Below are positions 2,514 to 48,335 of a DNA stretch of 64,000 nucleotides, piece by piece. Below the pieces are notes generated by a model. That model ran no database searches and was not told where the DNA came from. It saw only the letters and a list, made by a program, of their open reading frames with translations. This DNA is from Roseococcus sp. SDR (GTDB taxonomy: Bacteria; Pseudomonadota; Alphaproteobacteria; Acetobacterales; Acetobacteraceae): contig NZ_JAHRCU010000003.1 in the NCBI RefSeq assembly GCF_019083995.1, positions 186,001-250,000 on the forward strand. The letters are read 5' to 3'. The first letter of the stretch is position 1, and each line of letters begins with the position of its first letter. A program made the translations under genes and the position numbers.

Positions 2514-2534
2514 TCCAGCAGCTCTTCGCCACCG

Positions 2535-2954: not shown

Positions 2955-2955
2955 C

Positions 2956-3198: not shown

Positions 3199-3304
3199 CC
3201 TTCGCTAATAGTGAAATGCACTACTTCATGCAACCCCGATCGCAGGTCGCAGCCGCTGGCTCCGGCCCTGCGCCACCCCAACCACCACTGGAGACCTCAT
3301 CCCC

Positions 3305-4592: not shown

Positions 4593-4602
4593 GAGCACCG
4601 CC

Positions 4603-4902: not shown

Positions 4903-4905
4903 TCC

Positions 4906-6074: not shown

Positions 6075-6095
6075 TCCGCCTCCAGGAGAACGCCC

Positions 6096-7049: not shown

Positions 7050-7136
7050 CGCCCTAGCAGCCTCTTCCGCTTCCGCATCAAGGCCGCCAAACTACCATCT
7101 TCCGTAAGCTCCGTCGGCTGCAAAGAGGCATAAGGG

Positions 7137-8114: not shown

Positions 8115-8290
8115 CTCTCGCCGGCCAAATGGCGCGTCTACGTGATGCTCGAGGTGACCGCGCCTGGACCGCCGACCGGCGGCTTTGGGTTCGCTCAGGC
8201 CAAGCGTGTCGATGCATGCCCATTCCTTCGCGGACGGGCCACAGCCGCGATGCGACGACGCAACAAGCTGACATTGGAAGGATTGCTCCC

Positions 8291-8668: not shown

Positions 8669-8985
8669 GGGCCCGAGCCGAATGGCATTTCGGCCAGGGC
8701 CCTGACTACTGCCGCGGCTGCGCGGCCCTCGACCGCGACTGCGGCCTGGCCTGCCCCTACGCCGCCCACGCGCCGGCCAGCGTCGAGGGCGCTGCGGCCT
8801 GGGCCGCCGGCACCACCTGCGCCGCGGCGACCATGGCGGGCCTCGATCTCGACATGCCGGCCGCGCTCGCCACCGCTCGCGAGATGGGCGCCTCCGGCTG
8901 GGCCGCAGCCGAGTTGCTCCTGGCCATGCGCATGGGCCTCGCCGCCGGCAGCGCCGCGCGCCGCACTGATCCCCCCGGATCCTGA
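8291..8985 (+). CDS. Tail assembly chaperone, -1 frameshift product (gpGT-like)
   Basis: If ribosomes slip back one base at GGGAAAC (8656-8662, phased G GGA AAC), reading continues CGG CTA AGG and stays open until TGA at 8983-8985, adding about 108 residues. The added part starts LRARAEWHFGQGPDYCRGC, has a Cys-rich segment (DYCRGCAALDRDCGLACPY) and then an Ala-rich helix. It has no in-frame ATG/GTG near its beginning, so it is not an independent gene. The pattern corresponds to lambda gpG/gpGT, where the T part recruits tail tube subunits. Confidence 0.68.
8656..8662 (+). promoter_or_regulatory. Slippery heptamer for -1 frameshifting
   Basis: GGGAAAC is of the X XXY YYZ type and is correctly phased (G GGA AAC), four bases before the zero-frame TAA. 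After a -1 slip the new frame is open for over 300 bases. GC-rich downstream sequence could provide a stimulatory structure. Confidence 0.7.
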
Positions 8986-9014
8986 CCACCCCACCGACGC
9001 AGGAGGCATGACGC

Positions 9015-11168
9015 ATGGCGGATAGCACGCGCCGCGTCTCGGTCCGCCTGTCGCTGGACGACGCCGCCCGGGTCAAGCAGGAGCTGCGCGAGGTCGGCGA
9101 GACCGGCCAGCGCAGCCTGGAGCGCATCCAGGGCGGCGCCGATCGCGCCTCCCGCGCGCTGGACCTGCTCGACGTCGCCGTGCGCGGCGTGCAGATCGCC
9201 GGCCTTGCCGCAGGTCTGCGCGCGGTAGTGGTGGCCGGCGACGCGCTCACCCAGTCCATGGGGCGGCTCAACACCGCGCTGGGCTCCGTCGAGCGCGCCG
9301 GCGAGATCTACGACCGCCTCTATCGCGACAGCCTGCAGACCGGCGTCGCCGTCCGCGAGAGCGTCGACGCCTTTGCGCGCTTCTCGATCGCCGCCCGCGA
9401 GATCGGCGCCACCTCCGACCAGGTCGCCACGCTGGTCGGCGGCCTGCAGCGCATCGCCATTGCCTCGGGTGCCAGCCAGCAGGAAATCGCCTCCTCCACC
9501 CAACAGCTCGCCCAGGCGCTGGCGTCGGGCACGCTGCAGGGCGACGAACTGCGGTCCATCCTCGAAGGCCTGCCCACGCTGGCGCAGGCTCTGGCCCGCG
9601 AGCTCGGCGTCTCCATCGGCGAGCTGCGCAAGCTCGGCTCCGAGGGCAAGCTCACCGCCGACACGGTCTTCCCCGCGCTGCTGCGCGCCGTCGAGCGGCT
9701 GAACGGCGAGTTCGAGCGCGCCCCACTCTCCGTCGGCCGCGCCTTCGGGCAACTGACCGCCGCGGCGGACCAGTTCCTCGCCCGGCTGGACCAGGCGATC
9801 GGCCTGTCCAACGCCCTGGCGAGCGCGCTGTCCGGTGCCGCGCGCGTGCTAGACGGCGTCCGCCGCGGCTCCGGCCTGCTGCTCCCCTCTGAGCAGGAGG
9901 CCGACCGCCGCGCCCAGGCCGAGGCCCTGCGCGCCCAGATCGCCCGGTTGGAGGCGGAGAGCGAGGGGCAGAGCCTGCGCGCCCCGGTCCGCCGTGGCAG
10001 CATCCGTCCTGGCTTGGTGGGGGCGGCCCAGCAGCAGGCCGGCGTAGATCGCGCCGCCCGGCTGGAGGAGCTGCGCCGGCAGTACACGGAACTCCAGGAG
10101 GAGATCACTCGCGGCGAGGCGGCCGCTGGTGAGCGCCAGCGCACTGAGCAGGAGAGCGCCGCTGCCCAGGCCGCCGAGGCCCGCCGCCGCCGCACCGCCG
10201 CCGATGCCGAGGAACTGCGCAAGGCGCTCGACGTCCGCTTCCGGATCAACAGCGAATACGAGGACCGCGTCCGACGCCTGCGCGAGGCCGAGGCCGCGGG
10301 CGGCATCACTGCCGCGGATCGCACGCGCCTCGAGACGCTGGCCCTGCGCGAACGCGACGAGGCCCTGCGCCGCATCGAGGGCACCACCCGCCGCGTGGCT
10401 TCCATCCCGCGCCCGGACCGCGAGGCCGAGCGCGAGATCAACGACATCATCCGCGAGCGTGAGCGGCTGATCCAGAACAACGAGAACGCTCAGGAGCGCT
10501 ACACCCGCCGCCTCGAAACCCTCGGCCGGCTGGTAGAGCGCTCCGAGCGCATCGGGCAGCCCATCCCCGACGAGACCGTCTCGCGCGAGGCCAATGCCGC
10601 GCTGGAGGAGCTGGAGCGCAGCCAGCAGCGCGTCCAGCAGGCCACGGAGCGCACCAGCAACACGGCGCGCGAACTCGGCCTGACCTTCTCGTCGGCCTTC
10701 GAGGACGCGATCATCAAGGGCGAGAGCTTTTCCAAGGTGCTTCAGGGCATCCTGCAGGACATCGCCCGCATCGTCGTCCGGCGCACCATCACCGAGCCGC
10801 TCGGTACGGCGGTGACCTCCAGCCTGGCTGGCTTTGACTTCGGCTCGATCTTCTCCGGGATCGGCTCCGCGCTGGGTGGGCTGTTCCGCGCCGAGGGCGG
10901 GCCCGTGGCGGGTGGGCAACCCTACATCGTGGGCGAGCGCGGGCCCGAATGGTTCGTGCCGAACCGCAGCGGCACGGTGCTGCCCAACGGCATGGCGCCA
11001 GGCGGGCCGGTGATCAACCAGAGCATCACCATCGATGCGCGCGGCGCCGATGCCGGGGTCGAGGCGCGGCTGCGGGTGCTCTCGGCGCAGATCGTGCGCC
11101 AGGCCAGTGCCGCCACGCTCGACGCCATCCGCCGCGGCGGCAGCGCCACCTCTATCGTGCGGGGATAG
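9015..11168 (+). CDS. Tape measure protein
   Basis: A 717-residue protein of the tape-measure type, which sets tail length and is ejected with the DNA. Residues about 70-260 form the tape measure domain (MGRLNTALGSVERAGEIYDR, LQGDELRSILEGLPTLAQAL, LRKLGSEGKLTADTVFPALL). Long coiled-coil-like, charged segments follow (about 290-530). The C-terminus has the usual ending GGPVAGGQPYIVGERGPEWF. Roughly 700 residues predict a tail of about 105 nm at 1.5 Å per residue. It starts 29 bases after the frameshift product ends. Confidence 0.9.
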   Translation: MADSTRRVSVRLSLDDAARVKQELREVGETGQRSLERIQGGADRASRALDLLDVAVRGVQIAGLAAGLRAVVVAGDALTQSMGRLNTALGSVERAGEIYDRLYRDSLQTGVAVRESVDAFARFSIAAREIGATSDQVATLVGGLQRIAIASGASQQEIASSTQQLAQALASGTLQGDELRSILEGLPTLAQALARELGVSIGELRKLGSEGKLTADTVFPALLRAVERLNGEFERAPLSVGRAFGQLTAAADQFLARLDQAIGLSNALASALSGAARVLDGVRRGSGLLLPSEQEADRRAQAEALRAQIARLEAESEGQSLRAPVRRGSIRPGLVGAAQQQAGVDRAARLEELRRQYTELQEEITRGEAAAGERQRTEQESAAAQAAEARRRRTAADAEELRKALDVRFRINSEYEDRVRRLREAEAAGGITAADRTRLETLALRERDEALRRIEGTTRRVASIPRPDREAEREINDIIRERERLIQNNENAQERYTRRLETLGRLVERSERIGQPIPDETVSREANAALEELERSQQRVQQATERTSNTARELGLTFSSAFEDAIIKGESFSKVLQGILQDIARIVVRRTITEPLGTAVTSSLAGFDFGSIFSGIGSALGGLFRAEGGPVAGGQPYIVGERGPEWFVPNRSGTVLPNGMAPGGPVINQSITIDARGADAGVEARLRVLSAQIVRQASAATLDAIRRGGSATSIVRG

Positions 11169-11183
11169 GTCCAGGAGGGCATC

Positions 11184-11870
11184 ATGACCGAATACACCTG
11201 GCCCGCCACGCTGCGCCCGTCGCGGCTCAGCTTCTATCTGCAGCACAACACGCTACGCTTTGTCTCGCCGGTCACCCGCGCAACCCAGGTGCTGCGGCGC
11301 GAGGGTGCCCGCTGGGTGGCGGAGGCGAGCTTCGAGCCGCTGGGGCGTGTCCAGGCCGGGATGATGGACGGGCTGCTGGCGGCACTCGCCGGCTCGGCCA
11401 ACACGGTGCGCATCTGGGACTGGCGGCGCGAGTACCGCACCGGCGATCCGCGCAGCCAGGGCGATGTGCCGACCGGACCGTACTCCTTCTCGGACGCCAC
11501 CATCTTCACGGACGGGACCGGGCTGGTGGTGGGCTCAGGCAATCCCTCACTGGCGGCCGGCGCACCCCGCGGGGCGCTGTCCATCGTCACGCAGGGCTGG
11601 TGGCCGGGCACCGTAGCCGTGGGCGCCGGCGACTACATCGGCCTCGGCGGCCGGCTCCACATCGCCACGGCCGCGGTCGCAGCCTCCGGGGCAGGCACCG
11701 CCACCATCGCCATCGCGCCACCGCTGCGCGCCGCGGTGGTGGTCGGCGAGCCGCTGATCCTCTCCCTGCCGAGCGTGCCGATGCGGCTGGTCTCAGACGA
11801 CGAGGCGGCCAACCCGACGCGGCCGGGCCCCTTCGCCGCGGTCACCATCCGCATGGAGGAGGCGCTGTAG
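11184..11870 (+). CDS. Distal tail protein, unrecognised family
   Basis: A 228-residue beta-rich protein preceded by CCAGGAGGGC. It opens MTEYTWPATLRPSRLSFYLQ and contains VRIWDWRREYRTGDP and VPMRLVSDDEAANPTRPGPF. Position directly after the tape measure, where distal tail or baseplate-ring proteins are encoded, suggests a tail-tip role. I do not recognise a named family. Its TAG is two bases before the next ATG. Confidence 0.6.
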   Translation: MTEYTWPATLRPSRLSFYLQHNTLRFVSPVTRATQVLRREGARWVAEASFEPLGRVQAGMMDGLLAALAGSANTVRIWDWRREYRTGDPRSQGDVPTGPYSFSDATIFTDGTGLVVGSGNPSLAAGAPRGALSIVTQGWWPGTVAVGAGDYIGLGGRLHIATAAVAASGAGTATIAIAPPLRAAVVVGEPLILSLPSVPMRLVSDDEAANPTRPGPFAAVTIRMEEAL

Positions 11871-11872
11871 TC

Positions 11873-12439
11873 ATGTCCGGCACCCCACGCCTCAGCAACC
11901 AGGCAGCCTCCGCCGCCACCGCGCCGATCGCCACGCCGGTCGTCCTGGTTGAGCTCGACTTCGCCACCGGTCCCTTTCGCGTCTGGACCGGGCTCGGCCC
12001 GCTGGACTGGGCGGGGAAGGTGTTCGAGGGCGCCGGCAGCATCGGCGCCATCTCGGATGTGGAGGAGACGGTGGAGCTGCGCGCCGTGCGGCTCACCCTC
12101 GCGCTGTCGCCCGTGCCGCAGGAGGTGGTGGATATAGCGCTGGCTGAGCGCAGCTACCGCCTGCGGCCGGTCACGCTGTGGGGCGCCCTGCTGGACGCGC
12201 AGGGCGCCTTTGTCGCGGACCCGTTTCCACTCTGGGCCGGGCTGATGGACACCATGGAGGTCACGGACGGCGCGGAGCCCTCCGTGGCACTGGCCTGTGA
12301 GAGCCGGTTGGTCGACCTCGAGCGCGCCGAGGTGCGGCGCTACACCGACGCCGATCAGCAGGCGGAATACCCCGGCGATCGGTTCTTCGAGTTCGTCCCC
12401 GCCCTGCAGGAGGCGGAGATCCGGCTGCCTATCCAATGA
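11873..12439 (+). CDS. Tail-tip protein, DUF2163-like/gpL-like candidate
   Basis: A 188-residue protein. The ATG at 11873 is chosen because it follows the previous stop codon and the long upstream extension of this frame overlaps two real genes. It has VVLVELDFATGPFRVWTGLG near the start and WAGLMDTMEVTDGAEPSVAL later, the beta-sandwich layout of minor tail-tip proteins upstream of the NlpC-type and J-type proteins. It overlaps the next gene by 4 bp. The function is a positional inference. Confidence 0.58.
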   Translation: MSGTPRLSNQAASAATAPIATPVVLVELDFATGPFRVWTGLGPLDWAGKVFEGAGSIGAISDVEETVELRAVRLTLALSPVPQEVVDIALAERSYRLRPVTLWGALLDAQGAFVADPFPLWAGLMDTMEVTDGAEPSVALACESRLVDLERAEVRRYTDADQQAEYPGDRFFEFVPALQEAEIRLPIQ

Positions 12440-12789
12440 CCCGGCTACCCGACTGGCCGGAGCGGCTGGCGGCGCTGATCACCGTCGCTGAGCATCGGCC
12501 CTTCGACCTGGCGCGCTGGAACTGCGGGCGCCTCGCCTTGGCCGCGGTGGTGGCCTGCACCGGACACCGGCCGTCGTGGCAGCACCACCCCACGCTGGCG
12601 GCGATGGCGGACACTGCCGGCTTCCCCCGCGTCCCGGTGCCTTTCGCGCGCGCTGGCGACGTGGTGCTCGCCGCGGGCCCCGACCGCCTCGGCGTCGTGC
12701 TGGACGCCGGCCGCGCTGCCTTCGTCGGAACCGCGGGGCTGCTTCGCCTCCCCATCAACGCCTGCGCCATTGCCTGGAAGGTTGGCTGA
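12436..12789 (+). CDS. Tail assembly protein, DUF6950/NlpC-like
   Basis: A 117-residue protein in the position of the gpK-like NlpC/P60 tail peptidase. It has PFDLARWNCGRLALAAVVAC, which resembles the conserved Cys helix of the family, and GVVLDAGRAAFVG where a catalytic His would be expected but is absent, so activity is doubtful. The name DUF6950 is my recollection for this group. ATGA overlaps exist at both ends, so it is translationally coupled with its neighbours. Confidence 0.55.
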   Translation: MTRLPDWPERLAALITVAEHRPFDLARWNCGRLALAAVVACTGHRPSWQHHPTLAAMADTAGFPRVPVPFARAGDVVLAAGPDRLGVVLDAGRAAFVGTAGLLRLPINACAIAWKVG

Positions 12790-14810
12790 TGCCCGTCGCC
12801 ATTCCCTTCATCGCAGCCGCGGCGGGTGCCGCCGCCTCCGCCGTCATCGGTGGCGGCATCCTGGGCGCCGTGGCGGCCGCCGGCGCCGCCCTGGTGGTGT
12901 CCGCCGTCGGTGCCGCGGTCTTCCGCCCCAAGTCGCCCTCCGCCGCTCGCAGCGCCAACGTCACGCCAGGCACCGACACCGGCCCGGGCTCCGGCTTCGA
13001 TCCGCGCACGCCCGGCGCCGGCCGCACCCAATCCTTCCGCCAGCCCATCACCGAGCACCAGATCGTCTTCGGCCGCTGCCGCACCTCGGGCCCCGTCGTG
13101 TTCCTGCATTCCGCCACCGATGACGAGGGCCGCGCCGACGGCTTTCTCCACGTCGTCGTGGTGCTGGCGGCGCATCGCGTGCGCGCCATCGGCGAGGTGT
13201 TTCTCAACGGCACCGCCTCGACCGACGCGAAGTTCGCCGGACTGCTGCGGATCGATCGCGCGCTGGGCGATCCGGGTCAGGCCGCCAATAGCAATCTGGT
13301 GGCGGACACGGGTGGCCAATGGACCGCCGCGCATCGTGGCCAGGGCCGGGCCTACCTCGCCGTGCGGCTCAAGCTGCGGCCCGAGGCCTTTCCCTCCGGC
13401 GCGCCCAGCCTCTCGGCTATCGTCGAGGGGGCGGACACCATCCTCGATCCGCGCACCGGTGCCACCGGCTGGTCCGACAATCCCGCGCTCTGCCTAGCCT
13501 GGTACCTGACCTCGTCCTTCGGGTGGCGCGCGGCCTGGGCGGATATCGACCTGCCGGCGCTGATGGCGGCGGCGAACATCTGCGACGAGATCATGGGCCG
13601 GCGCGATGGCACCGCCGAGCGCCGCTACACCGTCAACGGCGCCGTCACGCTGGGCGAGGGCAAGATCGCCATCACCCGCAAGCTGGTCGCCGCCATGGCC
13701 GGCGCGCTCGTGGTGTCGGGTGGGCGCTTCTACATCCATGCGGGTGCACCCGCGCTGCCGGCGGCGACACTCACCTCCGACGACCTGCGCGGCGACGTCA
13801 CCATCGTCGGCTCGCGGCCGCGGCGGGATCTCTTCAACGGGGTGCGCGCCGTCTATGTCGAGCCGGCCGCCGCCTGGCAGCCCACCGACGCGCCACCGCT
13901 GCTGGCCAGCAACTACGTCACCGAGGATGGCAGCGAGGCGATCTACCGCGACATGGAGTTCCCGCTCACCACCTCGGCGGCGACCGTCCAGCGCCTGATG
14001 AAAATCGAGCTGGAGCGCAACCGCCGCCAGCGCGAGGTGGCGATGCAGGCCAACCTTTCGGCGCTGCGGCTGCGGCCCTGGGATGGGGTGACGGTGGCTC
14101 TCGACCGGCTCACGCCGTTCCCGGCGCGTGTGACCGGCTGGGCGCTGGCGCCGGATGGTGGGGTGAACCTGCAACTCGCGGAGGAGGATCCCGCCGTCTG
14201 GGCGTGGAACCCGGCGACGGACGAGCGGGCCACGGGGCAGAACCCCTCGGTGGTGCTGCCGAACCCAGGCGTGATCGCGGCGCCGGCGACCATCCTGGTG
14301 GAGACGCCAGTGGTGATCGCCTTCACGGCCATTGCCGTGTCCTGGTCGGCGGTGGGGTCGGCCTATCTCGCCGGCTACGAGATTGAGCTCCGGCCGGCCT
14401 CCGTCGCGGTCTGGCAGGGCTATGCCGGTGGCTTCGGCGCCACCGCCGTCGCTATCCCCACCGCGGAGCCGACCGCATTCCGCGTCCGGGCGCAGGCCCG
14501 CAGCGGAGCCGTGTCGGGCTGGCGCGAGGCGCTGGTGCCGGCCGCCGCGTCGGGCCTGGCTGCGACCGGCATCGCGAGCGGCGTGCGGCTGTCGGGCGGC
14601 TTTCCCGCGGATGCCGTTCGGCTGCAGGTGTTCGAAGCCAGCAGCGCCAGCCTGGCCGCCGCCATCAAGCTGGCCAGCGAGCCGACCGCGCTGCCATGGG
14701 ACCGCACCAGCCTCACCACCGGCCAGACCCGCTGGTACTGGCTGCGCAGCGTCTCGGCCGAGGGCAACGTCTCCGCCTTCGCCGGCCCGGTCACCGCCAC
14801 CGCCCTTTGA
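12789..14810 (+). CDS. Tail tip attachment protein, gpJ/TipJ-like
   Basis: A 673-residue protein starting at ATG 12789, which overlaps the previous stop codon. It begins with an Ala/Gly-rich hydrophobic segment (residues 1-45), then FDPRTPGAGRTQSFRQPI, FGRCRTSGPVVFLH and a central hub region (about 90-470: LVVSGGRFYIHAGA, YRDMEFPLTTS). Two fibronectin-type beta modules follow (about 495-670). This is the architecture of the central tail fibre or receptor-binding hub of long-tailed siphoviruses. It lies directly upstream of the tailspike gene. Confidence 0.75.
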   Translation: MPVAIPFIAAAAGAAASAVIGGGILGAVAAAGAALVVSAVGAAVFRPKSPSAARSANVTPGTDTGPGSGFDPRTPGAGRTQSFRQPITEHQIVFGRCRTSGPVVFLHSATDDEGRADGFLHVVVVLAAHRVRAIGEVFLNGTASTDAKFAGLLRIDRALGDPGQAANSNLVADTGGQWTAAHRGQGRAYLAVRLKLRPEAFPSGAPSLSAIVEGADTILDPRTGATGWSDNPALCLAWYLTSSFGWRAAWADIDLPALMAAANICDEIMGRRDGTAERRYTVNGAVTLGEGKIAITRKLVAAMAGALVVSGGRFYIHAGAPALPAATLTSDDLRGDVTIVGSRPRRDLFNGVRAVYVEPAAAWQPTDAPPLLASNYVTEDGSEAIYRDMEFPLTTSAATVQRLMKIELERNRRQREVAMQANLSALRLRPWDGVTVALDRLTPFPARVTGWALAPDGGVNLQLAEEDPAVWAWNPATDERATGQNPSVVLPNPGVIAAPATILVETPVVIAFTAIAVSWSAVGSAYLAGYEIELRPASVAVWQGYAGGFGATAVAIPTAEPTAFRVRAQARSGAVSGWREALVPAAASGLAATGIASGVRLSGGFPADAVRLQVFEASSASLAAAIKLASEPTALPWDRTSLTTGQTRWYWLRSVSAEGNVSAFAGPVTATAL

Positions 14811-14822
14811 TCGGAGAACGCC

Positions 14823-16652
14823 ATGCCGGCCCGCATCGACGACCTGCTGGTCCTGAACGCCAACCTCAACAAGAGCGACTTCGCGAAGTATCTGCGCGAC
14901 CGCGAGGCCGTGCTGCCGAATGATTTCGGCGGGCTGGGCGATGGCGTGGCGGATGACCGCACCGCCATCCAGGCCGCCTTCGATCGCGCCAGTGCGGACC
15001 AGAAATTCGCGATGATCCCGCCCGGCACCTGGAACGTCTCCGGCACGGTGACCCTGCCGGGCGGCGCGCGCGGGCTGATCATGCAGGGGACCATCCGCTA
15101 CACAGGCACGGTGCCGACCTCCGTGCTCGTGCTGGGCGATGGCGGCACCATCCGCAACGCCGAGAAGCTCTACACCGGGCTCAACGTGATCCGTCAGACG
15201 CTGTCGGACTGGTCCTCCGAAGCGGACATCGGCATCACCGTGCGCAACGTCGATGCGAGCCAGATCGAGCTGCGGCGGGTGGAAGGCTTCACCATCGGCA
15301 TGCGCACGTTGGGCGATGGCCGCGGCGTGGAGGACAGCACCTTCACGTTGGGCCGCATCGTGAACAACCGCATTGGCCTCGATATCTGGTGCGCGACGGC
15401 GACGGCCTGGAACACCTCCATCCGCTACTACGGCGGGCACTTCGCCCAGGCGACGGGGGTGAACGCGAGCCAGGACCGCTTTGGCGTGCGCTTCGGCAAT
15501 GAGGTGGGCGCCTACTCCAACCACAACCGCCACGTCTTCGACGCGCCGAACTTCGAGCTGCGCCAGGCCGGCAGCAACATCGCCATCCCCTTTCTGAACC
15601 AGACCTCGGGCTCTGCCATCATCGCGCGCAACATGCGCATGGAGGCGTGCTCACCGCTGGCGGCGCGGCACACGGCGGGCGCGCAGGATTGCGAGTACGA
15701 CATCGCCTGGACCAACACCTATCTTGTGGGCATCGACTACACGGCCACGGCGAACCGCTGCGGCAATGCGGTGATCAACCGGCACCGCGCGCCGGCGTCG
15801 CGGTTCCAGCGCTTCCTGGCCGGCGTGCCGAACATCCGCGCGGCGGCGTTCCGCCAGTCGGCGACGGAGATCGGCGTGGAGGGGCTGATCACCATCGCGA
15901 CCTCGACCACCACCGCGACCTTCATGGCGGATTTCTGCTTCAACGGGCTCGACGACGTCACCCCAACGGATCGGGCTTTGACGCTGGCCGCCCAGCGCGG
16001 CTTGTGCTGGTTGCTGGACGTATCGGCGACCAAGGAGTTTGCCCTCGTCCACACCCTGGCCGGCAACGCCCCTGGAGGTCGGCTGTTCGCGCGGTGCTTC
16101 GATGGCGCAGGCAACATCCGCACCAACCTGGCGGGCGACGTCCTGGCCTCCATCACCACCATGCTGTGGAGCCCGCCGGGTAAGCTTTGGACGGGCGGCT
16201 CCCCCATGGAGGATAGCAGCCTCAACCGCCGCCAAAGCCTGCGCTTTGGGCCAGCCGTGGCCTATGCCCAGATCGGCATCGTCGGCTTTGACGGGCCAAT
16301 CGACATGCAGTCGCTCCGGCTCTACGGGCTGCCGGAGGCCGCACCACCAGTGCTCAACGGCACGCCGCTGGCGCCCAACGGCGGGCGGCGGGAATTGGCG
16401 GCGGAGGTGTCGTGGGACCTGCCAAGCCTGGCGCCAGGGGCGACCGCGCTGCTCGACGTGACGGTAAACGGGGCGCGGACTGGCGACCTGGCGCAGGCGT
16501 CGCTGGTGTCGTCCACCCGCTTCATCGAGCTCGACGCATCCGTGTGGTCGAACAACACGGTGCGCGTCATGGCGCGAAATATCTCGGCGGCCACGTTCGA
16601 CTTGACGGCCGTGACGCTGTCAGTGGGGGTGGTGAAGCGGCGGATGCCGTGA
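14823..16652 (+). CDS. Tailspike with pectate-lyase-like beta-helix
   Basis: A 609-residue protein. The N-terminal region (1-35) is an adaptor-like segment, followed by NDFGGLGDGVADDRTAIQAA, the signature start of the pectate-lyase/right-handed beta-helix fold of phage tailspikes. Repeated beta stretches (GITVRNVDASQIELRRVEGF and similar) continue to about residue 300. The C-terminal 200 residues are likely a trimerisation or receptor-binding part. It would bind or cleave surface polysaccharide. It is the last gene of the late operon; the next gene is convergent after 6 bp. Confidence 0.78.
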   Translation: MPARIDDLLVLNANLNKSDFAKYLRDREAVLPNDFGGLGDGVADDRTAIQAAFDRASADQKFAMIPPGTWNVSGTVTLPGGARGLIMQGTIRYTGTVPTSVLVLGDGGTIRNAEKLYTGLNVIRQTLSDWSSEADIGITVRNVDASQIELRRVEGFTIGMRTLGDGRGVEDSTFTLGRIVNNRIGLDIWCATATAWNTSIRYYGGHFAQATGVNASQDRFGVRFGNEVGAYSNHNRHVFDAPNFELRQAGSNIAIPFLNQTSGSAIIARNMRMEACSPLAARHTAGAQDCEYDIAWTNTYLVGIDYTATANRCGNAVINRHRAPASRFQRFLAGVPNIRAAAFRQSATEIGVEGLITIATSTTTATFMADFCFNGLDDVTPTDRALTLAAQRGLCWLLDVSATKEFALVHTLAGNAPGGRLFARCFDGAGNIRTNLAGDVLASITTMLWSPPGKLWTGGSPMEDSSLNRRQSLRFGPAVAYAQIGIVGFDGPIDMQSLRLYGLPEAAPPVLNGTPLAPNGGRRELAAEVSWDLPSLAPGATALLDVTVNGARTGDLAQASLVSSTRFIELDASVWSNNTVRVMARNISAATFDLTAVTLSVGVVKRRMP

Positions 16653-39864: not shown

Positions 39865-40354
39865 CGGCGCGAAGGTCCTGCGCGGCCTGGGCGGCGATCA
39901 GCGCGACACGATGCGCGTCCGGGATGGCGCAGACATGCGTCTCGACGCCGAACGCATCCCATGCCTGGTTCGCCCATGCCTTCGGGCCGAAGCTCGCCCG
40001 CGCAATCGGGTCCAAGAACACCAGCATCTTTCGTACCCGCTTGCCCTGCCACTCAGCGGCATGGGCCTGTTCAATCAGCAGCATCTTCAACGTGTCCTTC
40101 AGGACCTTGTTCTTGGTTGCCGTCTTCATGGCCGAGCCGACGCGCGCGTTCACTTCCAGCAGCACCACCTCGTCCGTCGATTCGGCGAAGGCGTCCACGA
40201 TGGCCGCCGCTGGGCCGATCGGAAAGCGCTTCTGGGTCTCGACATGCGAGAGGCCGAGTTCCGCCGCGACGATACCGAGGGCGACCTTCTCGGCTTCACG
40301 CTGCGCCAGGGAATCGCTGCCCATACGGGGCACGGCGCCAATGTCACGCGGCAT
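39857..40354 (-). CDS. Restriction-operon accessory protein X, unknown
   Basis: A 165-residue protein between hsdR and hsdM, overlapping both genes (40344-40354 and 39857-39864). I start at MPRDIGAVPRMG because the longer frame reads back into hsdR. The centre contains EVVLLEVNARVGSAMK and KMLVFLDPIARASFGPKAW, an alpha/beta pattern somewhat like a nuclease core but without the E-x-K pair. It is not an ordinary part of type I systems. I cannot assign a function; a modulator of HsdR or HsdM is an inference from its location. Confidence 0.65.
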   Translation of the reverse strand: MPRDIGAVPRMGSDSLAQREAEKVALGIVAAELGLSHVETQKRFPIGPAAAIVDAFAESTDEVVLLEVNARVGSAMKTATKNKVLKDTLKMLLIEQAHAAEWQGKRVRKMLVFLDPIARASFGPKAWANQAWDAFGVETHVCAIPDAHRVALIAAQAAQDLRADG

Positions 40355-42758
40355 AGAGCTGTTCCTGTAACTCGGCCATCGCAGCGCGCAGCTGATCGGC
40401 GCCACCGAAGCGGCGGACGATCTCGCTCGGGTTCCCCATGGAGGCTACTGGCTCGATCCGCAGCGCATCCGGCAGGCGCAACTCATCGGCACCATGAGCG
40501 GCGTACTTCTCCAGCAGCGCTTCCAGCACCGCGCGCGCATCGGGGCCGTGGCGGTCGAAGAGGTCCTGCCGCTCGGTGCGCAAGCGCTCGGCGCGCTGCC
40601 GTCGTGTGCGCAGCGGCGCGTCCCAGGCGAGATGGCACAGAAGGTCGAAGGGGTCGTCATCCGGCCGCGCCATCTCGGTGGCCAGGGTCGTGAGGTCGAT
40701 ACCCCTTTCCGCCAGCTCCTCGACGACTGCCGCGCGCTTATCGGCGATGGTCCAGGCAGCGCGAAAGGCTGATGGAGTGGGATAGAGGGTGCGGATCTTC
40801 TCGCCGGTGTAGTCGGTGATGCGGCGGGCGGTCAGACGCTTGCCATCGGCGTCGAGCTCATAGACGTGGTGCTGCACCACTTCGACGGTGCCACCATCCA
40901 CATAGAATTTTCGTGGCTCACCAGGCTGGCCGCCGCCGGGCGGCAGCGGCGTGGCGGGGCCGGCCGGCTCGTCACCACCCGGCTCCTCGCCACCTGGTGG
41001 GGCAACAGGGTCGATCACTACGCCCGTCTCGATGCCATTCGGGTCGATAGTGGTGGTGGTCGCGGCGACGGGATCGCCATCGAAATCGGGATCGGCGAAT
41101 TTCGCCGTCGCGGTGCCCGTGTAGTCGAGGATGTTGAAAAACAGCTTGCCGTAGTCCTCCCGCAGGCGGGTGCCGCGGCCGATGATCTGTTTGAACTCGC
41201 TCATGGAGCCGACCACGCGCGCAAGCACCACGTTGCGGCATGTCGGCGCATCCACGCCGGTCGTCAGCATCTGGGAGGTGGTGAGGATGACGGGCGTTCG
41301 CTTCTCAAGGTCCTGAAAGTGCGACAGGTGGCCCCGACCGATCATGCCTTCGTCGGACGTCACGCGGCAGACGTAGTTCGGGTATCGCGCCACGAGATCG
41401 GCATTGAGGTTGGAAAGGGCACGGCGCATCTCGCTGGCGTGCTCCTGGTCCACGCAAAAGACGATCGTCTTGGCGAAGCGGTCGGTGGCCTTCAGGAAGC
41501 CGGTCAGATGGCGGGCGATCGCCTCAGTGCGGGCACGCAGGGCGACGACGCGCTCAAAATCCTTCGTGTGGTACTCCTCGTCCGGGATCTCGCGACCGAA
41601 ACGGTCGAGCTCCCCCTTCGTAGGACGCCAGCCGGCCGCATCGGTATCCGTCACGACACGGTGGACCCGATAGGGCGCGAGGAAGCCGTCCGCGATGCCT
41701 TGCGCGAGCGAGTAGGTATAGAGCGGGTCACCGAAATAGGCGTAGGTGTCGCGGTTGTCCTCACGCAGCGGCGTGGCGGTCATGCCGATCTGGAACGATG
41801 GCGCGAAGTAGTCGAGGATCTCGCGCCAGCTGCTGTCGTCGCGGGCGCTTCCACGGTGGCATTCATCGACGATGATCAGATCGAAGAAGTCGGGCGGGAA
41901 CTCGCGGTAGAGACCGGGGCGCCGCTCGTCCTGGGCAATCGCCTGGTAGATCGCGAAGTAGATGTCCCGACCGAGGCTTACCCGCCCACCCTCGATCTTG
42001 AAGCGGCCCTTGCCGAACGGCGCGAAGTCGCGCGCCATCGGGTCGTCCACCAGCACGTTGCGGTCGGCCAGGAAGAGGATCTTGGGCTTCAGATGGTCGC
42101 CACGCCGGTTCCAGCCGGATGACCAAAGGCGCCAGGCGATCTGGAACGCGATCGGCGTCTTGCCGGCCCCGGTGCAGAGGGTGAGGAGGCTGCGCTGCCG
42201 TCCGGTCAGAACGGCCTGTACGGCACGGTTGACCGCAATCTCCTGATAGTAGCGGAGCGGCTTGGCCGGATCAGGATAGCCGGGGGTGAGCGCCATCTGC
42301 GCAAGCGAGTCGTCGGCGAGGCCGAGGCCGGCGCGTTGCCGCGCCCAGAGATCGGCGGGGGTGGGGAAGTCATCGACCACGCGTTCAATGCCGGCGAAGA
42401 AATCGAACTCGATGATCTCCTTGCCATTGGTCGCGTAGGCGAATTTGAGACCGAGTATTTCGGCGTAGTCCTTTGCCTGCTGCAGCCCGTCGGCGGCGCT
42501 GAGGTAGGTGGGCTTCGCTTCGACGACGGCGAGCGCCAAGTCGGGACGATACCGCAGCAGGTAGTCCGCGCGCTTGCGGCGGCCGCGGCGGGGTTGCCCG
42601 GCCACGAACACGACCCGCCCATCGGTGAAAGTCCGCTGCTCCTGTACGGCGTGCGGCGCGGAGTCCCAGCCGGCAGCCTGGAGCCGAGGCACAACGAAGA
42701 GGCGGCAGGTGTCAGCTTCGGTGTTCAACTCGCCTCCCTCGGCCAGAATTCGAAACAA
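40344..42758 (-). CDS. hsdR: Type I restriction endonuclease/translocase HsdR (EcoEI-like)
   Basis: An 804-residue protein. The N-terminal nuclease domain contains ADYLLRYRPDLALAVVEAK, with the D...E-x-K arrangement of restriction nucleases. Next comes a superfamily 2 motor: TLCTGAGKT (about residue 199), IIVDECHRG (about 297), GMTATP and QIIGRGTRL. A Pro/Gly-rich linker leads to the EcoEI-type C-terminal domain that contacts the methylase. The start is TTG 42758, weak, so the true N-terminus may differ by a few residues. It is the first gene of the six-gene operon. Confidence 0.9.
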   Translation of the reverse strand: MFRILAEGGELNTEADTCRLFVVPRLQAAGWDSAPHAVQEQRTFTDGRVVFVAGQPRRGRRKRADYLLRYRPDLALAVVEAKPTYLSAADGLQQAKDYAEILGLKFAYATNGKEIIEFDFFAGIERVVDDFPTPADLWARQRAGLGLADDSLAQMALTPGYPDPAKPLRYYQEIAVNRAVQAVLTGRQRSLLTLCTGAGKTPIAFQIAWRLWSSGWNRRGDHLKPKILFLADRNVLVDDPMARDFAPFGKGRFKIEGGRVSLGRDIYFAIYQAIAQDERRPGLYREFPPDFFDLIIVDECHRGSARDDSSWREILDYFAPSFQIGMTATPLREDNRDTYAYFGDPLYTYSLAQGIADGFLAPYRVHRVVTDTDAAGWRPTKGELDRFGREIPDEEYHTKDFERVVALRARTEAIARHLTGFLKATDRFAKTIVFCVDQEHASEMRRALSNLNADLVARYPNYVCRVTSDEGMIGRGHLSHFQDLEKRTPVILTTSQMLTTGVDAPTCRNVVLARVVGSMSEFKQIIGRGTRLREDYGKLFFNILDYTGTATAKFADPDFDGDPVAATTTTIDPNGIETGVVIDPVAPPGGEEPGGDEPAGPATPLPPGGGQPGEPRKFYVDGGTVEVVQHHVYELDADGKRLTARRITDYTGEKIRTLYPTPSAFRAAWTIADKRAAVVEELAERGIDLTTLATEMARPDDDPFDLLCHLAWDAPLRTRRQRAERLRTERQDLFDRHGPDARAVLEALLEKYAAHGADELRLPDALRIEPVASMGNPSEIVRRFGGADQLRAAMAELQEQLYAA

Positions 42759-42950: not shown

Positions 42951-43340
42951 CTATTCGGCCGCATTTATGGCTGCGCGCTGGGCATCCCATGCGGCTGGGA
43001 GCGGGTCCAGCAGCACCGGCAAGCCGATTCGTTCGGGGTGCCTGCCATCGAGAACGCTCTCGACGATGTCGGGAGCGAGAAGCGTCAGCTTCAGCAGGCT
43101 GCCGAGATATCCCCGATCGAGTTTTTCGACTGCCGCCAATTCGGTGATAGAGGCATATCGGCCCTCGTCCAGCATCCGCTGATATCGGAACGCCCGTGCC
43201 AGCGCCTTCACTAGCGCCGGGTCGGCGCGCGTCGTGACCGGCGCCACGCCATCGGTCATCGGCGTCACGACGGTCTTCCGGCCCGGTCGGTGCCGAATCG
43301 CCAGCGGCACCCGGACCGTGATGCTGGTCGCCGTGGTCAT
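42951..43340 (-). CDS. Recombinase-associated DNA-binding protein
   Basis: A 129-residue protein overlapping the recombinase stop region. The N-terminus is beta-like and basic (ITVRVPLAIRHRPGRKTVV). The centre, ALARAFRYQRMLDEGRYASI then AVEKLDRGYLGSLLKLTLLA, resembles a helix-turn-helix of the kind encoded right after large serine recombinases in alphaproteobacteria. It ends with VLDGRHPERIGLPVLLDPLP. It may act as a directionality or accessory factor; this is inferred. Confidence 0.65.
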   Translation of the reverse strand: MTTATSITVRVPLAIRHRPGRKTVVTPMTDGVAPVTTRADPALVKALARAFRYQRMLDEGRYASITELAAVEKLDRGYLGSLLKLTLLAPDIVESVLDGRHPERIGLPVLLDPLPAAWDAQRAAINAAE

Positions 43341-44689
43341 GCTGCCGCCATCAGCGCGTTGGGCGAGATGGCGGTGAGATCGCGGACCAGGCCGGCGAGG
43401 CCCTCCACGCGCAGCCTAATGTCGGCACCGGCCGGCCCGACCACCACCCGTTCCACCAGTGACCGCACGATCCTCGCCTGCTCCGCGGGGAACAGATGCT
43501 CCCACAGTGGGTCGAGCCGATGCAGCGCGTCCTGGGTCTCGCCCTCAGTCAGGTCCGGCGCCTCCCGGCGCGCCGCCCGCCAGGTGCCAACCACGATCTC
43601 CGGCTGCCGCAGCAGCGTCCGCACCTGATCGACCACCGCCGCCTCGATCTCCGCTGCCGATACCCGGCGCACGATGGTGTCGTCACCGGCGGCGTCGCCC
43701 TTCAGCACGCGCTGGGCCACGTAGTAGCGATAGAGGCGGCCGTGCTTCCTGGCGTGGGTCGGCGACAGTGCCCGGCCATCCACGCCAAAGATCAGCCCCT
43801 TCAGCAGCGCTGGCGTCTGCGCACGGTTCTGATTGGCGCGCACGCGTGGGCTGATCTGCAATACGGCATGCGCCCGATCCCAGAGATCCCGCGGCACGAT
43901 CCCCTGGTGCTCACCGGGGTAGACCTGTCCCTTGTGGGCGGCGTCGCCGACATAGGTCCGGTTGTTCAGCAGCTTGTAGACGTCGCCCTTGTCCAGCGGC
44001 CGGCCCGCCTTGCTGGTGGCGCTCTCCGCCCGGAGGCGGGTCACCGTCTCGATGCCCGATCCCGTCTCGGCGAAAATCTCGAACACGCGGCGAACCCGCG
44101 GCGCCTCGTCCTCATTCACGATCAACTTCCGCGCGACGACGTCGTAGCCGAGCGGCACCTTGCCCCCCATCCACATGCCGCGGGCGCGGGAGGCAGCGAA
44201 TTTGTCGCGGATGCGCTCGCCAATGACCTCGCGTTCGAACTGCGCGAAGCTGAGCAGGATGTTCAACGTCAACCGACCCATGCTGGTGGTGGTGTTGAAG
44301 GACTGCGTGACGGAGACGAAGGTCACGCCATGCGCATCCATCACCTCCACCAACTTGGCGAAATCCATCAGCGAGCGGGACAGGCGGTCGATCTTGTAGA
44401 CCACGATCACGTCGACGAGGTCGGCCTGGATGTCGCGTAGGAGGCGCTGCAGCGCCGGCCGCTCCAGCGTGCCGCCCGAGAACCCGCCGTCGTCATAGCT
44501 GTCGCGCACCAGCACCCAGCCCTCGGCGCGCTGGCTGGTGATGTACGCTTCGCAGGCGTCGCGCTGCGCGTCGAGCGTATTGAATTCCTTCTCCAGCCCC
44601 TCGTCCGTGGATTTGCGCGTGTAGACCGCGCAGCGCAGCTTCTTCGTGGTGGCCGGCATGGCCGGCTCAATGCGGGCGCGGCGGCTCAT
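43337..44689 (-). CDS. Large serine recombinase
   Basis: A 450-residue site-specific recombinase. The N-terminal resolvase domain has CAVYTRKSTDEG with catalytic Ser27, FNTLDAQRDACEAYI, and YKIDRLSRSLMDF with the conserved Arg residues. The recombinase domain follows (VPLGYDVVARKLIVNEDEAP and LNNRTYVG). The C-terminal 130 residues lack the usual CxxC zinc-ribbon cysteines. This is the likely integrase of one element in the window. It overlaps the DUF2924 gene by 4 bp and the downstream small gene. Confidence 0.88.
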   Translation of the reverse strand: MSRRARIEPAMPATTKKLRCAVYTRKSTDEGLEKEFNTLDAQRDACEAYITSQRAEGWVLVRDSYDDGGFSGGTLERPALQRLLRDIQADLVDVIVVYKIDRLSRSLMDFAKLVEVMDAHGVTFVSVTQSFNTTTSMGRLTLNILLSFAQFEREVIGERIRDKFAASRARGMWMGGKVPLGYDVVARKLIVNEDEAPRVRRVFEIFAETGSGIETVTRLRAESATSKAGRPLDKGDVYKLLNNRTYVGDAAHKGQVYPGEHQGIVPRDLWDRAHAVLQISPRVRANQNRAQTPALLKGLIFGVDGRALSPTHARKHGRLYRYYVAQRVLKGDAAGDDTIVRRVSAAEIEAAVVDQVRTLLRQPEIVVGTWRAARREAPDLTEGETQDALHRLDPLWEHLFPAEQARIVRSLVERVVVGPAGADIRLRVEGLAGLVRDLTAISPNALMAAA

Positions 44690-45183
44690 GCGTCACCTCG
44701 CGCGCGCAGCCCGAAGAACGTCCAGCCGTTCCAGCGCGTGCCGGTGATGTGGCGCGCGATGGCGGACAGGGACTGATACGGCCGTCCCTCAAATTCAAAG
44801 TCGTCGGCGCGCACGGTGACCACGTGCTGCACGCCCTGCCATTCCCGGATCAGGCGCGTGCCGGCAAGCGGGCGACTGTCGGCGCGGATTCGGCGCAGGA
44901 CGACGTTTCCGCCATCCAGTTGCTCGCCGAGCGCCACCAGCCGATCGGCGGTCTCGGGCTTCAGCCCGCCATAGGCCAATTCCTGGATGCGATAGGCCAG
45001 CCGGCTCTGGATGTAGGCCCGGTTCCAGGGCGGCGGCTCCTTGCCGAACAGTTCGCGCCACTGCTGCTTCAACGTAGCGGTCGGCGCCGCCTGCAGCGCG
45101 GCGAGCCGCGACAGCACCTGCGTCGGCGGGATCTTCGGGATGGTGGGCGCCGGCGCGGGCGCGGCGGTGGATCGTCTGGTCAT
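44686..45183 (-). CDS. DUF2924 family protein
   Basis: A 165-residue basic protein with PTATLKQQWRELFGKEPPPW, LAYRIQELAYGGLKPETADR, then TRLIREWQGVQHVVTV, FEGRPYQSLSAIARHITG and TRWNGWTFFGL, the DUF2924 pattern. The family is found next to large serine recombinases in alphaproteobacteria. The ATG ending at 45183 has AGGAAGGGA upstream. It is probably an accessory DNA-binding protein of the recombinase cassette, an inference from context. Confidence 0.8.
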   Translation of the reverse strand: MTRRSTAAPAPAPTIPKIPPTQVLSRLAALQAAPTATLKQQWRELFGKEPPPWNRAYIQSRLAYRIQELAYGGLKPETADRLVALGEQLDGGNVVLRRIRADSRPLAGTRLIREWQGVQHVVTVRADDFEFEGRPYQSLSAIARHITGTRWNGWTFFGLRARGDA

Positions 45184-45398
45184 GCGAGTCCCTTCCTGTT
45201 GGGGTTCGCATGCAGGCGCTGGTGGGCGGTGGAGTGTAGGGGAACGTCTCCCACCCCCCGAGCTATCTGTGCATCCCGCGCATGGTCTTCGGCAGCGCGG
45301 CTGCGCAGCCGCACCAGGCCGGCGGCCAGGATCGAGCAAACCTCCCGAAGGTGCGGCGGGAGCTGCTGGTTCATCGGGCCGGATGCGGGAAGGCTCAT
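45180..45398 (-). CDS. Small protein of the recombinase cassette
   Basis: A 72-residue protein, MSLPASGPMNQQLPPHLREV then CSILAAGLVRLRSRAAEDHA. Its TGA overlaps the DUF2924 ATG (45180-45183), which supports a real gene even though it is short. I recall similar short helical proteins ahead of DUF2924 in such cassettes. The function is unknown. The 103 bp to the divergent gene at 45502 must carry both promoters. Confidence 0.6.
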   Translation of the reverse strand: MSLPASGPMNQQLPPHLREVCSILAAGLVRLRSRAAEDHARDAQIARGVGDVPLHSTAHQRLHANPNRKGLA

Positions 45399-45501
45399 CC
45401 CAAGCCATTACTCGGCAAGGCCAGAATCCGTATCACGTGACCGTTGCGCCGTGCTCACAACCTCCGATAGAAAGATTACGAATCATCAATCGGAGCTTCG
45501 C

Positions 45502-46734
45502 TTGGCCAAGAACGTCCGAAACTTCGTAAACCGCCTGTTCATGCAGACGGTCGACCTTGGCCTTCTTCGAGAACTCCTTGCGCCGCATGAGCCAGAAATG
45601 GCCTTTAAGTGGCTTGAGCTTCCTGAAGACGAATCTGCCCAGCGGGATGCCCTCTTCCACCTCTTCCGGGAGCGCGGTGACGAGTTCCCCGATATATTGT
45701 TGGATGCGCTTCACTCAATACTGACTCTTTCGACGCCGAATGGAGCGCGGGCGCTTCAGGAGATTGCCGATGAGCGCGGCGTGCGACTGGCCGAGGAGGC
45801 CGAACCGGCACCCGCCGACGATCGGAAGCGCCTGACCGCGCGCCATCTCGCGCTGATCGCCTACCTGCACCACCGCGATATCTTTCAGCGAGCGGTCCAT
45901 CGGCACGCGTTTTTCGCATCATCCCCCCTCAGGCTGATCGGAGCCAGGAAAGGAGTGGTGCCGCGGCACGAGGACGAGACGGCACGGGAAGCCTTCAAAG
46001 CCGCCTGCCGGGAATACTTCGCGCGGCGCTACCAGGGGCGAATTTGCGACGTCTACTGGTACCCGGAGTCCACGCACATGAATCTGCTGGTTGAGCACGG
46101 CATGAACGCCGTGATCCTTCCCGTGGAGGAGGGCGGCCGGCAGACGACGCGTCCTGTGCGCGAGATCACAGCAGACGCCATTTGCTTCGAGCCAGAGACA
46201 GGGCTGATTAAGGTGGCGGCGCGCGCCAAGGTCGAGCGCCTGAAGCTGGTGCACCTATTCGCCGAACATCTCCTCGACGATCCCGACTTTTTCTCTGGTC
46301 CGAAGAGCGATCAACTTTACCATCTGGCGCCCATCGAAAAGAAGGGCACCACCTGGAAGTTCGAGAACGACTGGGACGACGATCTGAAAAGCGTCAAGGT
46401 CGTCGAGATCGAGATCGATGAGGGGCAAGCAGGCAAAGGCGGCCGCGGAGGTTCCCCGTGGAGCCTCCGCATGACCGACACCCTGAATTCCGTGTCCCGG
46501 GTCGAGCGCGTGTGTCCAGACATCGATCTCTCGACCTTGCGGGTATCGGGGCTGAAGATGCGGATGCGCTTCGAAATCGACGGGGAGCGACGCGACGTCA
46601 CGGTCGCGATCAAGGTGCCCAACACAGTCTCCTTTCGCGACCATCTGCTCGAGGCCCGGATTTTCGAGCACCTTCGGCTCAACGGATTTCTGATGGATGA
46701 CGACCCTGCTCGCCTCGCTGCTGCAGCAGATTGA
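45502..46734 (+). CDS. Unrecognised protein A of a two-gene operon
   Basis: A 410-residue protein starting at TTG 45502 with CGGAG 7 bases upstream; the frame upstream is antisense to DUF2924. N-terminal helical part FVNRLFMQTVDLGLLREL and EMAFKWLELPEDES, then a central segment with REYFARRYQGRICDVYWYPE and a C-terminal part with LFAEHLLDDPDF and VRVSGL-like strands. I find no catalytic motif and no family. GC is lower than in neighbouring phage genes. It overlaps gene B by 38 bp, so both are expressed together. Confidence 0.7.
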   Translation: MAKNVRNFVNRLFMQTVDLGLLRELLAPHEPEMAFKWLELPEDESAQRDALFHLFRERGDEFPDILLDALHSILTLSTPNGARALQEIADERGVRLAEEAEPAPADDRKRLTARHLALIAYLHHRDIFQRAVHRHAFFASSPLRLIGARKGVVPRHEDETAREAFKAACREYFARRYQGRICDVYWYPESTHMNLLVEHGMNAVILPVEEGGRQTTRPVREITADAICFEPETGLIKVAARAKVERLKLVHLFAEHLLDDPDFFSGPKSDQLYHLAPIEKKGTTWKFENDWDDDLKSVKVVEIEIDEGQAGKGGRGGSPWSLRMTDTLNSVSRVERVCPDIDLSTLRVSGLKMRMRFEIDGERRDVTVAIKVPNTVSFRDHLLEARIFEHLRLNGFLMDDDPARLAAAAD

Positions 46735-47671
46735 TCTGCATCCCATCCGCGCGCTGCCCGCCGCAGCGTGCATAGGGTGGGAGCCGCTTCGAGATCACCT
46801 CCGCCAAGTGGGCATCCTGGCCTGGCGTCCACCGCTGGACGAGGCGGACGCAGCGGATGTCGAGTTTGTCGATGGCGAGCCCTACCTCACCGTCGTCCAA
46901 GATGATCTGCATGCGCGTTCGCTCGACATCGACTTTCGCGCGACGGCGGTCGCCATCCGCCGGGACTGCGGGATCACGGGTCCACCTTTGGAACTGCTAG
47001 ACGCACGGGTTGTGCGCATCGGCGCCGTCCCGGCCAAACCGTACCCGTGCGGCGTCTACCTGGTACGACTCCTGTCCGACCGGAATGCATTGGACACCTT
47101 GTCGGCGATCAAGGCACGCCATGGTGCGGGTCGCGTGATCATCATGACACCGACATTGCGCTTCCTCAGTCCCGAGACGCTTCGTTTGATTCAGCCACTC
47201 GGCGTCACCATCAGCCCCGTCGCCGAGCGCATAGCTGGCGCCCTGCCCGCGCCTTTCCGAATGCTGCTCGACGATCTTGTCAGCGGACAGGATGCGGCTC
47301 CGCGGGAGGATGCTCTGCAGCTCGATGAGATTCGCTCGGTTGCGGCCTTTCGGGGCAGCGAGCTTTCGCTGACCCCCCGTGAATTCCACGCCCTGCGAGA
47401 ACTCGCCGGTGCGGCTGCCGACCGCGATCCCATCGTTTCGAGGGGTGCGATCCTGGATGTTCTCGCCAGATACTCGACCCATGGCGAGGAGCCGAGAGAC
47501 GAGCAGGTGACACTGGTCATCTCGGCCATCAAGAAGGCCATTGCGGCAGCAGCGTCACCGGAAGAGAAAGCCTCGGACGCGCTCATCCGGACCGTTCGCG
47601 GTGTTGGGTACGAGCTTCGGCTGCCGGCTGACCGCATCTGGTTTCGACGCTCGGACGCACGAGCAGAATAG
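46697..47671 (+). CDS. Unrecognised protein B with C-terminal OmpR-type winged helix
   Basis: A 324-residue protein. Residues about 1-200 are unrecognised (LLQQIDLHPIRALPAAACIG, VVRIGAVPAKPYPCGVYLVR) and contain no response-regulator acidic pocket. Residues about 220-310 are a winged helix: LSLTPREFHALREL, DEQVTLVISAIKKAI and LIRTVRGVGYELRLP. It is therefore a DNA-binding regulator with an unusual N-terminal domain, possibly regulated by protein A. A 21-bp-period direct repeat starts at its stop codon (47668). Overlap with protein A indicates coupling. Confidence 0.7.
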   Translation: MTTLLASLLQQIDLHPIRALPAAACIGWEPLRDHLRQVGILAWRPPLDEADAADVEFVDGEPYLTVVQDDLHARSLDIDFRATAVAIRRDCGITGPPLELLDARVVRIGAVPAKPYPCGVYLVRLLSDRNALDTLSAIKARHGAGRVIIMTPTLRFLSPETLRLIQPLGVTISPVAERIAGALPAPFRMLLDDLVSGQDAAPREDALQLDEIRSVAAFRGSELSLTPREFHALRELAGAAADRDPIVSRGAILDVLARYSTHGEEPRDEQVTLVISAIKKAIAAAASPEEKASDALIRTVRGVGYELRLPADRIWFRRSDARAE

Positions 47672-47706
47672 CTTCCGCATAGGTTCGGATAGCTTCCACA
47701 CAGGTT
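47668..47706. repeat. Tandem direct repeat, period 21 bp, behind gene B
   Basis: ATAGCTTCCGCATAGGTT (47668-47685) and ATAGCTTCCACACAGGTT (47689-47706) match at 16 of 18 positions, 21 bp apart. They sit between gene B and the first early phage gene (47763). OmpR-type winged helices bind such direct repeats, so protein B may control early phage transcription here. Confidence 0.6.
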
Positions 47707-47762
47707 GAATCCCCCCCGCGAACGGCACGGTCCGCCCATCAACTCGATGGAAAGGACCACCG

Positions 47763-48335
47763 ATGGCTTCCCACCCCAATCTCCCCGACCTCGCTCCGGC
47801 CCACCATCTCGCCGGCGTTGCAGCCTCGGCCCTGTGCCGCAGCCTCGGCCTGCCGCCTGAGGATCGCGAAGACTTCCGCCAGGATCTTCTTGTCGATCTT
47901 CTGACCCGTCTTCCTGCCTACGACCCCGCGAAGGGCGAGTTCGGCGCCTTCGCTCGGGTCTGCATCCGGAATGCTGCCGCACTGATCGCCGGCAAAGCCC
48001 GTCGCCAGCGCGCGGCCCGCCATCCGCGCTCCCTCGACGATGCCGTTCCCAACACCGAAGGCCTGACGCTGGGCGACACCATCGCGGAGGCGGATGGATA
48101 CGGCGCGTGGTGCGGCCAGTCCACCGACGCCATCGGCGCGCTGGAACGCCGCCTCGACCTGGAGCGCGCGGCCGGCGCAATCGCCCCCGAGGACTACCCG
48201 CTCTGCGCAGCGCTCAGCGAGCACACGCCGCACGAGTTCGGCGAGCAGAAGACGATGCCGCGCATGCGCATCTATCGCCGCATCCGGGAAATCCGCCTGC
48301 GGCTGCTCGCCGCCGGCATCCCCTCCGCCGCCTGA
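47763..48335 (+). CDS. Sigma-70-like factor encoded with phage early genes
   Basis: A 190-residue protein with a region 2-like segment: PEDREDFRQDLLVDLLTRLP and YDPAKGEFGAFARVCIRNAA, followed by ARRQRAARHPRSLDD. A shorter C-terminal helical part may represent region 4 (MRIYRRIREIRLRLLAAG). It could redirect RNA polymerase to phage promoters. GGAAAGGACCACCG precedes the ATG. It is the first gene of the early + strand block. Confidence 0.7.
   Translation: MASHPNLPDLAPAHHLAGVAASALCRSLGLPPEDREDFRQDLLVDLLTRLPAYDPAKGEFGAFARVCIRNAAALIAGKARRQRAARHPRSLDDAVPNTEGLTLGDTIAEADGYGAWCGQSTDAIGALERRLDLERAAGAIAPEDYPLCAALSEHTPHEFGEQKTMPRMRIYRRIREIRLRLLAAGIPSAA

Follow-up and report, generated by a model that had tools for sequence, protein, structure and literature searches.

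A candidate control pair and an operator-like repeat array between the integration cassette and the early operon of a Roseococcus prophage

The window, by which we mean the whole 64,000-nucleotide stretch of Roseococcus sp. SDR DNA analyzed here, carries an operon of two genes, A and B, flanked by an integration cassette that points left and an early operon that points right (Table 1). The sequence-only reading of this DNA had placed two genes with a 38-bp overlap at this position between the recombinase cassette and the early genes, with a GC content lower than that of their surroundings, and all of this is borne out: both sets of gene coordinates hold, the placing is the same in relatives, and GC is 59–66% across the pair against 66–73% in the flanks. 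The TTG start of A is backed by an aligned ATG in two relatives (L049 and L087), and the relatives range from an overlap of up to 89 bp to genes that nearly abut. The element that contains the pair is a prophage, with terminase, portal, cement, and tail-tube families to the right and a separate primase/helicase-type gene downstream of A-B.

Table 1. Features of the A-B locus (positions in the window)
Feature	Position	Strand	Description
Flanking integration cassette	42951..45408	-	phrog_14161 protein, large serine recombinase, DUF2924 protein; context, outside the pair
Candidate A promoter	45444..45473	+	-35-like TTGCGC 45444-45449, -10-like TAGAAA 45468-45473; aligned with GATAGAAC of relatives
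Inverted repeat CTCCGAT-N20-ATCGGAG	45462..45495	.	over the candidate -10; place of the LexA box in relatives
Gene A	45502..46734	+	410 aa; TTG start at 45502, stop at 46734
Gene B	46697..47671	+	324 aa; N-terminus of no known family
PhoB/OmpR-type winged-helix domain of B	47309..47629	+	residues 205-311
Operator-like array, four half-sites	47669..47707	+	47669-47675, 47680-47686, 47690-47696, 47701-47707
Predicted RNA hairpin	47729..47758	+	overlaps the ribosome-binding region of the sigma-like gene; z -4.1
Sigma-70-like gene	47763..48335	+	opens the early operon

Protein A was originally described as having no recognizable family, and this description stands, since no family in Pfam (E ≤ 0.01), NCBIfam, or PADLOC matches it and its sole family match is phrog_37634 (E = 8e-7), a PHROG whose function is unknown. 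A Pfam scan of 34 A proteins was equally without a match, the RdgC family (PF04381) included. Claims about the fold of A rest on AlphaFold models such as the one used here, which was built from 34 sequences and has a pLDDT of 86.6. This model matches E. coli RdgC with a Foldseek E of 9e-5 and a Z of 11.1 over 225 residues (rmsd 5.8 Å), with residues of about 134–401 making up the RdgC-like part. Chl4/CENP-N is matched with a Foldseek E of 1.5e-4, a probability of 1.00, and a Z of 8.3–8.8, and CENP-L/Iml3 with a Z of 8.4–9.0. According to the aligner's own notes, unmatched models usually reach a best Z of 7–8, and against this background RdgC stands out and the kinetochore proteins do so only slightly. 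Viral RdgC-like models are also among the structure matches; RexA is absent among those listed, and no sequence link between A and RexA was found. A is thus predicted to have an RdgC fold and, more weakly, to resemble CENP-N/CENP-L. This fold is common to Chl4/Iml3, RdgC, and lambda RexA (PMC4080450, PMC11077077), and the likeness of Chl4/Iml3 to RdgC has been published (PMC4080450). An identification of A as RdgC by sequence was rejected, with an hhalign profile comparison probability of 0.7%, and at the sequence level this comparison with RdgC gave none of the homology to a housekeeping family that would have refuted the sequence-only reading. Searching the PDB sequences with a profile of A likewise gave nothing below E 0.1 and no sequence match to CENP-N/CENP-L.

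Protein B had been read as an unrecognized N-terminus of 200 residues on an OmpR-type DNA-binding domain, with no phosphorylation pocket, and this agrees with the searches: Pfam places Trans_reg_C at residues 220–307 (E = 7e-7, over the cut-off), the winged helix aligns with PhoB, BaeR, and CovR domains at a Z of 10–13.6, and no receiver family matches B at E ≤ 1. A receiver-domain origin of the middle part of B was considered and dropped, the alignments over residues 79–310 being unusable at an rmsd of 8–16 Å. In one subgroup of B proteins (L025–L032), the N-terminus contains the cysteine motif CxxCxCG...C, a possible metal-binding site that is missing from the B of the window.

Behind B lies a direct repeat (47668–47706) of two 18-nt copies that are 89% identical and 21 bp apart. 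The 21-bp period given in the sequence-only reading is real, but the repeat resolves into four 7-mer half-sites, TAGCTTC, TAGGTTC, TAGCTTC, and CAGGTTG, at a spacing of 11-10-11 bp. With 32 of 42 pairwise matches (z 3.9), the array outscores every one of 60 dinucleotide shuffles, no second strong array of this kind occurs within the surrounding 128 kb, and all 11 elements scanned had one strong array each. Among 37 loci, 17 have a four-7-mer array with 10–12 bp spacing that scores above all 60 shuffles, where 0.6 would be expected, these 17 including many close relatives; about half of the 37 loci, among them most of the distant ones, have no significant array. When the region upstream of A was scanned for arrays, raw scores were lower in nearly all loci.

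The array sequences vary by locus (TAGSTTC in the window; CCGATAG, CGAGAGG, TCCCACA, TTCTCCC, CTCCCCC, TCCTCCC, and others elsewhere) and differ between variants of B. L030 and L032 are 90% identical in A and 81% in residues 1–205 of B, with winged helices only 50% identical and different arrays, and L026 and L030, at 68% in A and 48% in B 1–205, have a 77% identical winged helix and an array in common. L023 and L024 also have a common array, though their winged helices are only 51% identical. In a Mantel test, array similarity followed the winged helix with a rho of 0.47, A with 0.40, and the B N-terminus with 0.17, values that are confounded by relatedness. This pattern is that of an operator read by B, to which its winged helix would probably bind. 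In one relative (L029), the array is about 1.6 kb away from B and still adjoins the sigma-like gene; since it stays with that gene, the repeat is better assigned to the early genes than to the stop codon of B. Its position exactly at that stop codon, which had been pointed out earlier, is correct for the window. The idea that B on the array acts as a roadblock to read-through was set aside because of the gap in L029 and because terminator-like sequences lie, by eye, between B and the array in four loci (L090, L093, L094, and L100). Downstream of B in L053, three palindromes, CTCCAT-NN-ATGGAG, stand in place of direct half-sites, which suggests another binding geometry in that B subgroup.

Hairpins similar to the one predicted between the array and the sigma-like gene recur, with an altered sequence, in relatives that have A-B (z −3.3 to −6.6), and the hairpin at an XRE-type locus is weaker (z −1.4). 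With an E. coli-like scoring matrix, the sigma-70 promoter score is poor in the early-operon region and better upstream of A, and on the same type of matrix the XRE/ImmA loci are likewise without a strong core promoter upstream of the sigma-like gene.

Searches with the alignment A1 detected A in 12 of 385 sampled genomes of the class and in 39 of 398 of the phylum (the window's genome counted), with in-frame stops flagged in some of the A matches. The pair is widespread in Pseudomonadota, and the loci that we read, whose genes were called by simple ORF picking, mostly lie beside a serine recombinase, between the integrase and the early genes. With A 98–99% identical and the same flanks, the pair occurs on six IMG/VR contigs, one of which breaks off within A, and in four named species, Falsiroseomonas stagni, F. 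tokyonensis, Rubritepida flocculans, and Neoroseomonas alba, some of these contigs and species being one genome counted twice. In more distant relatives, A identity drops to about 60%, 28%, and 22%, and the recombinase and two downstream proteins are mostly far more similar than A. No match was returned by tblastn for A against phage and plasmid records or for B against phage records; both proteins do occur on IMG/VR contigs and in bacterial genomes. In most of the loci read, the gene next to A is B-like, and two loci encode a fusion of 721–726 residues in which the A part precedes the B part. Because the genes overlap throughout and are fused in these two natural cases, we treat A and B as one unit, most likely a fast-evolving regulator pair of integrated viruses.

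In closely related prophages (L127–L131), where the recombinase is 94–99% and the downstream proteins 85–93% identical, the place of A-B is taken by a leftward cassette that encodes a protein of about 230 residues, a 93-residue XRE protein, and an M78-peptidase protein (Pfam check in L128), and L132, L135, and L146 are more divergent cases of the same replacement. The proteins of these XRE + ImmA/IrrE cassettes are unrelated to A-B, and in other relatives such genes lie beside A-B rather than replacing it. The partner of about 230 residues (L128:1749-2438) has no Pfam match and recurs in several prophages. A CI-like S24 repressor fills the slot in L149, and a similar gene, by eye, that in L133. 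The slot of L141 (6660-9295) holds a 262-residue gene and one for a 616-residue QueC-domain protein, with similar genes in L147; by eye, the C-terminus of the QueC-domain protein resembles another winged helix (GYRLNP). Where close relatives have a repressor cassette in the slot, the array is missing, and neither A nor B is itself an XRE/HTH repressor with an M78 or S24 peptidase.

The window's genome holds two related prophages in tandem (window 1-16600 and 42900-64000; G000:C3 162001-270000), the neighbor being of the XRE/ImmA type and the other of the A-B type. Tail genes of the neighbor fill the first 16.6 kb of the window and are 78–81% identical to those of the second prophage. Between the two (16600-42800) lie heavy-metal ATPase, MerR-like, and efflux-type genes, recognized by eye, as well as a type I restriction system with HsdR at 40344-42758 (PADLOC). 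Modules that reside together in one genome have different arrays or cassettes (L029 and L032 in G014, and further cases in G015, G009, and G000).

The region before A suggests how the pair itself may be controlled. An exact LexA box (GAAC-N7-GAAC) lies 33–43 bp before A in 9 of 13 closer-group relatives, against a chance expectation of 0.006 per locus, and the same place holds a box with one mismatch in three of the remaining relatives and with two mismatches in the last. Host recA and lexA, assigned by protein motifs, have the same box near them. The window's own A promoter has lost the LexA box and has an inverted repeat instead. In many other, more distant relatives, a damage-type repressor gene (XRE+ImmA, LexA-like, or WYL) adjoins A-B. 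The earlier proposal of a sensor-regulator pair for lysogeny thus keeps its regulator half, given the constant place, the exchange with XRE/ImmA cassettes, the array, and the fusions, and its sensor half is not supported: A has a predicted RdgC/CENP-N/CENP-L-like fold, and damage sensing more likely lies in whatever represses the A promoter than in A. If A-B is a product of derepression, then it should act on the lytic side, as do SetCD (PMC4344509) and LexA-controlled antirepressors (PMC3121763), and by this analogy it would be an activator.

Several known systems resemble A-B in part. Pho boxes consist of direct half-sites at 10–11 bp spacing, so that both the winged helix of B and the spacing of the array recall the PhoB/OmpR family, but B has no recognized receiver domain and an N-terminal part outside known families. 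Another partial likeness is to SetCD, which is FlhDC-like and whose folds are expected to differ from those of A-B. SetC and SetD of SXT/R391 elements form a two-gene activator complex with a short site near the activated promoters (PMC4344509); for A-B, the pair, the fusions, and the array are seen, and a complex and its binding are presumed, with the difference that A-B elements have one strong array each. Lambda RexA has an RdgC-type fold, lies in the lysogeny-control region, and influences the lysis-lysogeny switch (PMC11077077). A is placed in the same kind of region, but it carries an additional helical segment at its N-terminus, has a winged-helix protein rather than RexB as its partner or fused to it, and comes with its own array; the link to RexA would run through the predicted RdgC fold only. 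RdgC itself, a ring-shaped dimer that binds DNA without sequence specificity and the best structural match of the A model, differs in acting in recombination and repair, where A belongs to a regulatory operon, and in having no sequence-profile similarity to A.

We put a probability of about 0.5 on A-B being one regulatory unit, a control pair that activates the prophage early operon through the array. The winged helix of B would bind the four half-sites, and A, with its predicted RdgC/RexA-type DNA-clamp fold, would join and stabilize the complex. During lysogeny, the A promoter would be repressed, in the closer relatives by host LexA and in others by an XRE+ImmA, LexA-like, or WYL regulator of the phage. 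DNA damage would lead to production of A-B, which would occupy the array and turn on the sigma-like gene together with the replication genes that follow. The LexA boxes of the relatives and the poor promoter score of the early-operon region are in favor of activation. Points against this reading are the loss of the LexA box in the window, where a scan of 29 prophage proteins also gave no classical repressor, the lack of a significant array in about half of the loci, the weak core promoter of the XRE/ImmA loci as well, the array common to L023 and L024 in spite of their different winged helices, and the nearly equal correlation of the array with A and with the winged helix.

If A-B were instead the lysogeny repressor, holding the early operon off from the array, then its rapid divergence would amount to heteroimmunity, and the different arrays or cassettes of co-resident modules would fit, as would the occupation of a slot that elsewhere holds XRE/ImmA or CI/LexA-like cassettes. 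We consider this possible, though clearly less probable than activation, and it keeps real weight because the window has neither a LexA box nor, among the 29 proteins scanned in its prophage, a classical repressor. In the relatives with LexA boxes, however, a repressor would be made under damage, which is the wrong way round, and many relatives have another repressor-type gene beside A-B. The tandem direct repeats beside a DNA-binding pair, together with the clamp- or kinetochore-like predicted fold of A, would also suit a replication or segregation site (iterons or centromere-like) served by A-B as initiator or partition proteins. We think this improbable: close relatives fill the slot with repressor cassettes and no array, neither A nor B has a detected motor or initiator domain, and the primase/helicase-type gene downstream is a separate one.

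An anti-phage defense module in a variable slot of the prophage, the other function that had been suggested for the pair, seems just as doubtful. RexA, of the same fold, participates in phage exclusion (PMC11077077), the GC of the pair is lower than that of its flanks, and the L141 slot has its QueC-domain gene, but PADLOC matches none of 34 A and 37 B proteins, and the constant regulatory place, the arrays, and the exchange with repressor cassettes all speak against it. Beyond activation as such, A could be a mobile-element cousin of CENP-N/CENP-L, a clamp that B places on a tandem-repeat landing site in a centromere-like assembly controlling phage early genes. This proposal is quite unlikely, and if it were true, A-type proteins would be candidate relatives of the inner kinetochore. 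The likeness to CENP-N/Chl4 and CENP-L/Iml3 is a structural one on a predicted model, with a Z slightly above background.

New here are the fold match of A and the A-B fusions, the half-site arrays that differ by B variant, and the exchange of the slot with XRE/ImmA cassettes. Through the pair, a connection of the RdgC/RexA/kinetochore fold with transcription control becomes open to test, and since the presumed binding site is predictable from sequence, specificity could be tested by swaps of the winged helix. Naming the A-B pair, which now has no family model, would identify the lysogeny switch in many prophages that seemingly lack one.
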